Position numbers and translations under genes: made by a program. From Pseudomonadota bacterium (GTDB taxonomy: Bacteria; Bdellovibrionota; Bacteriovoracia; Bacteriovoracales; Bacteriovoracaceae): a stretch of DNA of 64,000 bases. Positions 8,851 through 10,905 of this stretch are shown here, piece by piece. Numbering within the stretch: the stretch's first letter is position 1; each line of letters opens with the position of its first letter. The notes under the pieces were generated by a model. That model had not been told where the DNA came from and made no database searches. It saw nothing but the letters and a program-made list of their open reading frames with translations. The stretch spans positions 1 to 64,000 of the forward strand of contig JAIYBW010000006.1 of assembly GCA_027488375.1 (NCBI GenBank), written 5' to 3'.

Positions 8851-9477
8851 TTGGCTTATTTATATATTGATTCTACTTATGATATTTCGATTGGAGTTCT
8901 AGATGAAAATCTGGGATGGAGAGTTCTTGAAACTTTTAGCGGCGTAAAAGCTTCTAGTGTTCTTCAGAAAGAAACTCATAAAATCCTAAAAAATCTAGAT
9001 TTGGGTCTCAAGGACATTAAAAGTATAGTCACGATTGCTGGTCCTGGTTTTTATACTGGTTTAAGATTGTCTGAAGGTTTTGCAGACGTTTTTTCTTTTA
9101 GCGGTCTAAAGCATTACTCATTTTATTCTCATCATATACCTCAATTTTTAGGTCATACTTCGGGTGTATGGTTGACCAAGGCTTACCGTGGAGAATATTT
9201 TTTTCATACTTGGAATGAACAGCAGAGAAAAGATGAATTAATTCAATTGAAGGATTTAAAATCTTATTTAGAAAAAATTAAAGACGAAAAGCTTTTCATT
9301 CATTCTGAATCTGCTATTGATGACCACATTAAAGACTTTAATTATACTCTCATCTCAACTCGAGATTTGTTGAGCAAAAAACCTGAAATTATTTTTAAAG
9401 CCATTTTATCAACTTCCCTGAAAGTAGATTCTTTTTATTTTAGACCTGCTGAAGAAGAGTTTAAGGCCAATCCATGA
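8851..9477 (+). CDS. tsaB: TsaB-like tRNA threonylcarbamoyladenosine accessory protein
   Basis: TsaB is the non-catalytic partner of TsaD/TsaE in making the t6A37 base of ANN-decoding tRNAs. The 208-residue product has the ASKHA-fold start YLYIDSTYDISIGVL and the family's best-kept motif, GPGFYTGLRLSEG (about residues 68-80). The rest is poorly conserved, as is usual for TsaB. It starts with TTG, two bases after the rseP stop, without a clear ribosome-binding site. Its last 4 bases overlap the next gene (ATGA). It is slightly shorter than E. coli TsaB. Confidence 0.8.
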   Translation: MAYLYIDSTYDISIGVLDENLGWRVLETFSGVKASSVLQKETHKILKNLDLGLKDIKSIVTIAGPGFYTGLRLSEGFADVFSFSGLKHYSFYSHHIPQFLGHTSGVWLTKAYRGEYFFHTWNEQQRKDELIQLKDLKSYLEKIKDEKLFIHSESAIDDHIKDFNYTLISTRDLLSKKPEIIFKAILSTSLKVDSFYFRPAEEEFKANP

Positions 9478-10142
9478 GCCGAATGACTTTTGTTCCTCGA
9501 TTTTTGGTATGGATTTATATTGGTTTTGTTTTTATTTATGTTAGAAATTGGTTTCCTGCACTTCAGTTTATTTTCGTTATTTTTTCCCTCTTTGTTTTTT
9601 ATTTCTTTCGTAGATCATCAATTCCTTATCGTGAAACAATTAAAAATGATGGTGAAATATTTCTTTCACCAGTTCAGGGTGTTGTTAAGTCCATTAGACG
9701 GGATACGATGGCGTGGGATGAATTACCTGGGGCCCATGAAGTCCGTATTGCGATAAATTTTTTAGATCAAAAAGGTCTTTATCTTCCTACTGATGGTGAA
9801 GTTGGCTATTTAAAGGAAAATAAAGGTATCCCTATAAGTCGTCATGCTACTTCTCAAGAGTTTTATTTACCGCCGGCCGAGATGGCCCATACTGATTTAG
9901 TACTAAAATCTAAAAATGAAACAAAGACACTAATGCGATTTATTGATTGTAAATTTGGCTACCGTCCTAGCATCTGGTTGAAATCTGGTGATCGAGGGCG
10001 GGGAGCAGCATGTTTTGGCCATTACCCTTTTGGGGGAACTTTGATAATTTATTTACCAAAAGATAGTGATATTTTAGTTTTTGAAAATGAGAGCCTCGTT
10101 CCTGGCCAGTCCGTTATCGCAGCTCTTAAAGATTTAAATTGA
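9474..10142 (+). CDS. Phosphatidylserine decarboxylase-like protein lacking the catalytic triad
   Basis: The 222-residue protein follows the short (membrane-anchored) phosphatidylserine decarboxylase layout. It has two N-terminal membrane helices (about 8-45), then the beta-rich domain with FLSPVQGVV, INFLDQKGLYLPTDG and a C-terminal FGGTLIIYLP. The family's key residues seem to be missing. The Asp of the P-x-D-G motif is Gln68. The two His of the D-x-H-x-x-H motif are Lys100 and Tyr103. The Ser of the G-S self-cleavage site, source of the pyruvoyl cofactor, is Gly188. It sits directly before pssA, where Psd is often encoded. I read it as a decarboxylase-family protein that probably cannot form the pyruvoyl group. 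Confidence 0.75.
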   Translation: MSRMTFVPRFLVWIYIGFVFIYVRNWFPALQFIFVIFSLFVFYFFRRSSIPYRETIKNDGEIFLSPVQGVVKSIRRDTMAWDELPGAHEVRIAINFLDQKGLYLPTDGEVGYLKENKGIPISRHATSQEFYLPPAEMAHTDLVLKSKNETKTLMRFIDCKFGYRPSIWLKSGDRGRGAACFGHYPFGGTLIIYLPKDSDILVFENESLVPGQSVIAALKDLN

Positions 10143-10152
10143 AGGATATTAA

Positions 10153-10905
10153 ATGTTGATCGAAAACCGTCGTTGGGCTTTTTTTCTCCCTAATACTTTT
10201 ACTGCTCTTAATATGGCCTGTGGCTTTGCAGCTATCCTTCATGGATTTCAAGGTGATTTTTATAAAGCCTGCATGTTTATTGTTTTAGGAGCTGTTTTTG
10301 ATAGTGTTGATGGTCGAGTGGCAAGGATGACAAATACTCAATCTGCTTTTGGGGAGCAATTTGATTCCATGAGCGATCTTGTCTCTTTTGGTGTTTCTCC
10401 CGCTATTGTTTATTATTTTAGATTTCTTGCAAATTCCGGTAGACCAGGTATGGTCGCAGCCTTCTTTTTTATTCTTTGTGGGGCTTTGAGGCTTGCTCGA
10501 TTTAATGCCAATATTGATAAGAATAAGTCTGACTACTTTCAAGGTTTACCAATACCAGGTGGAGCGACGGCCGTAATAGCTCTGGTGCTTATCTCTCTTG
10601 GTCTTCCTGAAATTGTGGATTACAAACCATTTACTGTTGGTTACCTCATTTTTTACGCTGTTCTTATGATTTCTAATATTCCTTTCCCTAGTTTTAAAAA
10701 ATCCGAATGGGTGAAGACTAATAAAAAACAAGTTTTAATGGTTATTTTCATGATCCTTGCCACACTCTTCATTTATGAAGAAATCATGATCCCTATCATC
10801 ATTACTTTTTATGTGGTCGCTTCTTTAATTTATTTTCTAACTCATCGAAAAAAGTTTGAAGGCATTTTTGATTGGCAAGAAGAGCCAGATTCTGTTGAAA
10901 AGTGA
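10153..10905 (+). CDS. pssA: CDP-diacylglycerol--serine O-phosphatidyltransferase
   Basis: PssA joins CDP-diacylglycerol and serine to phosphatidylserine, the precursor of phosphatidylethanolamine. The 250-residue polytopic protein has the complete CDP-alcohol phosphotransferase motif. It runs DSVDGRVAR, eight residues, then G-x3-D-x3-D, at about residues 54-79. N-terminal FLPNTFTALNMACGF is typical of type II PssA. AAGGATA precedes the ATG. The gene follows the decarboxylase-like gene by 10 bases, and its TGA overlaps the GTG start of truA. Confidence 0.95.
   Translation: MLIENRRWAFFLPNTFTALNMACGFAAILHGFQGDFYKACMFIVLGAVFDSVDGRVARMTNTQSAFGEQFDSMSDLVSFGVSPAIVYYFRFLANSGRPGMVAAFFFILCGALRLARFNANIDKNKSDYFQGLPIPGGATAVIALVLISLGLPEIVDYKPFTVGYLIFYAVLMISNIPFPSFKKSEWVKTNKKQVLMVIFMILATLFIYEEIMIPIIITFYVVASLIYFLTHRKKFEGIFDWQEEPDSVEK

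Follow-up and report, generated by a model that had tools for sequence, protein, structure and literature searches.

A psd-like gene lies between tsaB and pssA

The window, that is, the whole stretch of 64,000 nucleotides analysed here, carries an intact gene for a homologue of short-form phosphatidylserine decarboxylase (Psd), hereafter pseudo-Psd or PSDL (Table 1). Its start codon shares a 4-nt overlap (ATGA) with the end of a tsaB-like gene, and pssA starts 10 nt downstream of its stop codon. The product of pssA scored 136.9 bits against TIGR00473 (cut-off, 107), and its CDP-alcohol phosphatidyltransferase motif is intact. The TsaB protein of the window is itself divergent (24.3 bits against PF00814, for a cut-off of 24.8) and evolves at about the same rate as the pseudo-Psd.

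Table 1. Genes and sequence features at the PSDL locus (positions in the window; residue numbers are those of PSDL).
Feature	Position	Strand	Basis
tsaB-like gene, invariant upstream neighbour of PSDL	8851..9477	+	
Pseudo-Psd (PSDL), homologue of short-form Psd that lacks catalytic residues; 222 aa, start codon ATG at 9474, stop codon at 10142	9474..10142	+	
Hydrophobic hairpin at the N terminus, formed by the helices 9-25 and 28-44	9498..9605	+	AlphaFold secondary structure
S65-P-V-Q68-G69, former SPADG loop, Gln68 at the site of E. coli Asp90	9666..9680	+	
D98-Q-K100-G101-L-Y103-L-P105, former D-x-H-x-N-R loop, Lys100 at the site of E. coli His144	9765..9788	+	
G172-D173-R174-G175-R176, clade-specific signature of the pseudo-Psds	9987..10001	+	
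P185-F-G187-G188-T189, former F-G-S self-cleavage site	10026..10040	+	
pssA, CDP-diacylglycerol--serine O-phosphatidyltransferase, invariant downstream neighbour of PSDL	10153..10905	+	

An alignment search detected PSDL in 114 of 129 Bacteriovoracaceae genomes, representing 40 of 48 genera, and in 67 of the 73 genomes of high quality. According to the named records, the carrier group is the Bacteriovoracaceae, with Bacteriovorax, Halobacteriovorax and related MAGs. The order tsaB-PSDL-pssA was found in all loci for which flanks were available (32/32). Furthermore, two genomes that had been scored negative (G026 and G028) carry a divergent homologue of about 192 aa in the same slot (HMM E-values of 1e-12 and 7e-6, respectively), and true retention is therefore above this tally. 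The copy of G028 (L115:2247-2828, minus strand) has diverged extremely and no longer contains the FGG motif, in a cluster that is fast-evolving as a whole. A sequence error, a frameshift or a chance ORF was rejected as an explanation for PSDL, as the same residues are gone from 92 distinct proteins of many genera.

We also observed that other genera of the Bacteriovoracaceae (L062:5177-6148, L064, L074, L075 and L114) carry a gene of about 320-375 aa, with an apparently secreted product, between pssA and truA. This gene is absent in the window genus, and other families have asd at this position.

PSDL is a remote homologue of Psd

The homology of PSDL to Psd is real but remote. Against PF02666, the window protein reached 19.2 bits over residues 38-215, just below the 22-bit cut-off, and four of its homologues (G033, G030, G004 and G032) scored above it. 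The NCBIfam short-form Psd model NF003678 gave an E-value of 7.5e-14, below its curated cut-off, and TIGR00164 (archaetidylserine decarboxylase) an E-value of 6.4e-7. Comparison by hhalign of 92 PSDL homologues with the canonical short Psds of the same phylum produced an alignment of 205 columns (E-value, 5e-25), and the profile match to the long-form Psd of the same genome was weak (E-value, 1.8e-4). A sequence search of the PDB with the window protein returned no meaningful match.

AlphaFold, supplied with an alignment of 31 homologues, predicted a structure of two N-terminal helices followed by an all-beta domain (pLDDT 89.3, pTM 0.85). Foldseek related this model to E. coli Psd and PsiD structures of the PDB (6l06, 7cnx and 8x4q) with a probability of 1.00 and a TM-score of about 0.45. 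By E-value, its best match was EIIA-Glc (3our_B), a regulator without catalytic function that belongs to the same general class of folds. The two helices form a hydrophobic hairpin (maximum 17-residue Kyte-Doolittle value of 2.40, compared to 2.31-2.81 in canonical short Psds), the predicted counterpart of the membrane anchor present in canonical short Psds. An earlier note, made from the sequence alone, had described the protein as a Psd homologue that keeps the family framework and membrane anchors; the profile matches, the Psd-type fold and the hairpin confirm this description.

Catalytic residues of Psd are missing from PSDL

Upon alignment to canonical short Psds, the sites of E. coli D90, H144, H147 and S254 correspond to Gln68, Lys100, Tyr103 and Gly188 of PSDL, in agreement with the four substitutions named in the earlier note. 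That note had compared the segment of Lys100 and Tyr103 to D-x-H-x-x-H. Both residues were placed correctly, but this segment is that of long-form Psd, whereas the short form has D/N-x-H-x-N-R, in which the supposed second His is an Arg. The site of E. coli D142 is Asp98 in PSDL, and 32 of the 92 homologues have Asp there.

Gly188 occupies the site of the self-cleavage Ser in 92 of 92 distinct homologues, which upholds the statement that PSDL lacks the Ser from which the pyruvoyl group forms. The H144 site is His in only 4 homologues and another residue in 88/92; likewise, Asp persists at the D90 site in only 4 homologues and is replaced in 88/92, most commonly by Asn. Asn alone at the D90 site is not telling, because the otherwise canonical Psd of L205 reads SPANG.

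Studies of E. coli Psd have shown that maturation proceeds mainly via D90/D142-H144-S254, that the most important residues are H144 and S254, D90 and H147 each being dispensable on its own, and that H144 mutants have no decarboxylase activity, although slow self-cleavage persists without H144 (PMC7952604). The register of the alignment also bears on the cleavage site: canonical short Psds (F-G-S-R) place the Ser on Gly188, and the long Psd of the same genome (F-G-G-S-T) places it on Thr189. Position 189 is Thr in 54/92 homologues and Ser in 10/92 (64 in total), and the remaining 28 have Lys, Ile, Glu or other residues.

The FGG(T/S) motif, which lines up with FGGS in the long Psd, together with the slow cleavage of E. 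coli Psd without H144, would suit a PSDL that is still an enzyme, in which Thr189 or Ser189 cleaves after Gly188 to leave a 2-oxobutanoyl or pyruvoyl group and new residues replace the triad. Homologues from genus g5 (L026:1489-2157, L142:293-961 and L143:269-937) would suit it as well, as they combine Asp68 with Ser189 in FGGS, as in long Psd, and two of them have His103; these g5 proteins possibly contain a shifted triad. However, persisting catalysis appears very improbable for PSDL, given that 28/92 homologues have neither Ser nor Thr at position 189 whereas Gly188 is invariant, that the window protein lacks Asp68 and has no His at 100 or 103, and that the residue equivalent to H144, essential for decarboxylation in E. 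coli, is lost in 88/92. In either register, the sequence of the window PSDL contains no catalytic triad, no Asp or His accompanying Thr189.

PSDL has conserved a new signature around the former active site

Conserved columns of PSDL are partly common to canonical Psd (R46, P66, G69, P105, G172, G182 and G187) and partly specific to the pseudo-Psd clade (D173, G188, G101, G175, E109, R174, P185 and P165), with Asp173 invariant in 92/92 homologues. Several of these residues map to loops that make up the active site in true Psds, and conservation within PSDL is highest in the loops surrounding the former active site. A pocket in which a new signature (G-D-R-G...P-F-G-G) has become fixed is more in keeping with a binding role than with decay.

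PSDL could also perform another job at the membrane, for instance as a phospholipid carrier or as a scaffold of the cdsA-rseP-tsaB-pssA cluster, unrelated to the activity of PssA, and the best E-value obtained by Foldseek, that of EIIA-Glc, is compatible with such a role. We consider this quite unlikely, since PSDL is always joined to pssA and since the conservation of the former active-site loops suggests that a ligand pocket was kept.

Pairwise dN/dS ratios ranged from 0.06 to 0.11 for PSDL and from 0.04 to 0.10 for tsaB, and were below 0.04 for pssA; dS was saturated in most of these pairs, but the one close pair (dS of 0.22) gave 0.086. These ratios and the family-wide occurrence of the gene corroborate the earlier view that it is intact, adjoins pssA and is retained rather than decaying. 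Judged by sequence comparison and the predicted fold, PSDL is a Psd-like pseudoenzyme that has been maintained under purifying selection. PSDL does diverge faster than pssA (median distance, 1.31 vs 0.39), and the highly divergent copies of G026 and G028 would also suit a slowly decaying, functionless relic that persists solely because of its operon position. Such a relic is nevertheless improbable in the extreme, considering the low dN/dS ratios, the ORFs intact through most of the family, the invariant new residues, and the outright absence of the gene from related lineages.

PSDL occupies the slot of a canonical short psd

Outside the Bacteriovoracaceae, we observed the order cdsA-rseP-tsaB-psd-pssA in L206 and tsaB-psd-pssA-asd in L205, with a canonical short psd in L206 and a canonical psd in L205; in L207, tsaB and psd are separated by one additional gene. 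The psds found in this slot in these related families encode HVNR and FGSR motifs, and further families have the order psd-pssA-asd with a canonical psd. Because related families have a canonical short Psd in the same slot, PSDL and the native short Psd are, on the evidence of gene order, positional orthologues. We also considered, and rejected, that Bdellovibrio-type and other families have a Psd relative ahead of pssA, as the ORFs of about 220 aa found there (L118 and L123) encode unrelated membrane proteins.

Related lineages that have a long Psd often show tsaB immediately upstream of pssA and no gene in the interval (L121, L211 and L215), and the retention of PSDL is therefore not trivial. 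Going by these gene contents, the short gene is absent elsewhere in the phylum where the long one exists, and the Bacteriovoracaceae kept theirs after the loss of its catalytic residues. As for the order of events, that is, whether the long form was gained before or after the loss of the residues, we infer that the native Psd most likely ceased to be catalytic once the reaction was carried out by the long form.

A long-form Psd is encoded elsewhere in the genome

What makes phosphatidylethanolamine (PE) in this organism had been called an open question, and a genome search for a second canonical psd had been suggested. This search found a long-form Psd (G000:C5:431994-432608, minus strand) of 309 aa with intact VDYHRYH and FGGST motifs, which matched E. 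coli Psd structures at 1.6e-23. With DYHRYH and FGGS encoded in the same genome, the question no longer stands at the gene level: PE is presumably formed by the long-form Psd, whose presence and intact motifs predict the activity. A loss of PE synthesis was rejected on the same grounds. By table count, a strong PF02666 copy is present in 75 of the 77 Bacteriovoracaceae genomes that are at least 90% complete. The long Psd of this family (L001:1483-2412, minus strand, and other Bacteriovoracaceae) reads Glu-Ala-Arg-Tyr where E. coli has A-D90-G, and the D90 equivalent is Glu in the aligned family members and in f12 relatives.

This Glu at the D90 site is one of several observations compatible with PSDL being a prozyme-like partner, which would form a hetero-oligomer with the long-form Psd and speed its maturation or activity. 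Pyruvoyl enzymes provide a precedent in the catalytically dead AdoMetDC prozyme, which plays this part for AdoMetDC in trypanosomes (PMC5201418), and the genes for PSDL and the long Psd co-occur through the family. Furthermore, in a distance correlation across 15 genomes, the highest partial r of PSDL was with the long Psd (0.43), barely above tsaB (0.41) and followed by PssA (0.22), values that do not separate the partners. Nevertheless, we regard a prozyme-like role as unlikely. Glu-type long Psds occur in f12 genomes (L041, L049, L116 and L121) with tsaB directly before pssA, and this class of enzyme therefore needs no PSDL. Moreover, PSDL stays with pssA and was not seen beside the long psd.

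Discussion

Our analysis indicates that PSDL is a pseudoenzyme variant of the known Psd family and not a decarboxylase. It resembles short-form Psd (PF02666; NF003678 / PRK05305) in its length, its N-terminal membrane hairpin followed by F-R, its SP-x-x-G loop, its all-beta domain, its C-terminal G-x-(T/S) motif and its place between tsaB and pssA. In contrast, it lacks the self-cleavage Ser, the catalytic His and the Asp of the SPADG loop, displays the new conserved G-D-R-G and Gly188, and scores below curated cut-offs. The long-form Psd of the same genome (nearest model, NF001941 / PRK00723) belongs to the same superfamily and, unlike PSDL, keeps D-x-H-x-x-H and G-S. Archaetidylserine decarboxylases (TIGR00164) constitute a related short Psd subgroup, but are active pyruvoyl enzymes with the residues that PSDL lacks. 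Another parallel, the AdoMetDC prozyme of trypanosomatids (PMC5201418, PMC6221367), is likewise a dead relative of a pyruvoyl decarboxylase kept beside an active copy. However, it differs in fold and pathway and is a gene-duplicate activator in eukaryotes, whereas the dead copy described here is the native positional gene, for which an activating role is only hypothetical. Among open-licence papers, we found none joining "phosphatidylserine decarboxylase" and "pseudoenzyme".

We tentatively propose an explanation that we regard as plausible yet short of probable, namely that a native short Psd turned into a pseudoenzyme that serves as a membrane partner of PssA and holds phosphatidylserine or an anionic phospholipid, PE being made by the long Psd. 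Sequence comparison shows a short-form psd inherited in the ancestral slot cdsA-rseP-tsaB-psd-pssA-truA, whose product lost the residues for self-cleavage and decarboxylation and became a maintained pseudoenzyme; the long-form Psd, encoded elsewhere, would make PE. PSDL retains the Psd fold, the membrane hairpin and the former active-site loops, and has a new conserved G-D-R-G signature. Most likely located at the inner membrane beside PssA, it may hold phosphatidylserine or another anionic phospholipid, unreacted, in the former active site, and this binding may regulate PssA or pass its product on. A possible role of PSDL as a lipid-binding partner or regulator of PssA fits the evidence, with the proviso that adjacency to pssA is by itself no proof of interaction because it was inherited from the canonical psd. 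The very divergent G028 copy, devoid of FGG, also speaks against it.

How bacteria match phosphatidylserine synthesis to decarboxylation is poorly understood. It is possible, though rather doubtful, that PSDL detects phosphatidylserine through its dead active site and adjusts the activity of PssA by product feedback, thereby controlling the balance between phosphatidylserine and PE family-wide. If true, this would represent, in bacterial phospholipid synthesis, a counterpart of the prozyme principle. Our observations also carry a warning for annotation, as several PSDL homologues score above the Pfam cut-off and might be labelled decarboxylases, while the candidate enzyme lies elsewhere in the genome. 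A dead decarboxylase kept beside the synthase in most of a predatory family is a testable candidate for a regulatory or hand-over subunit.
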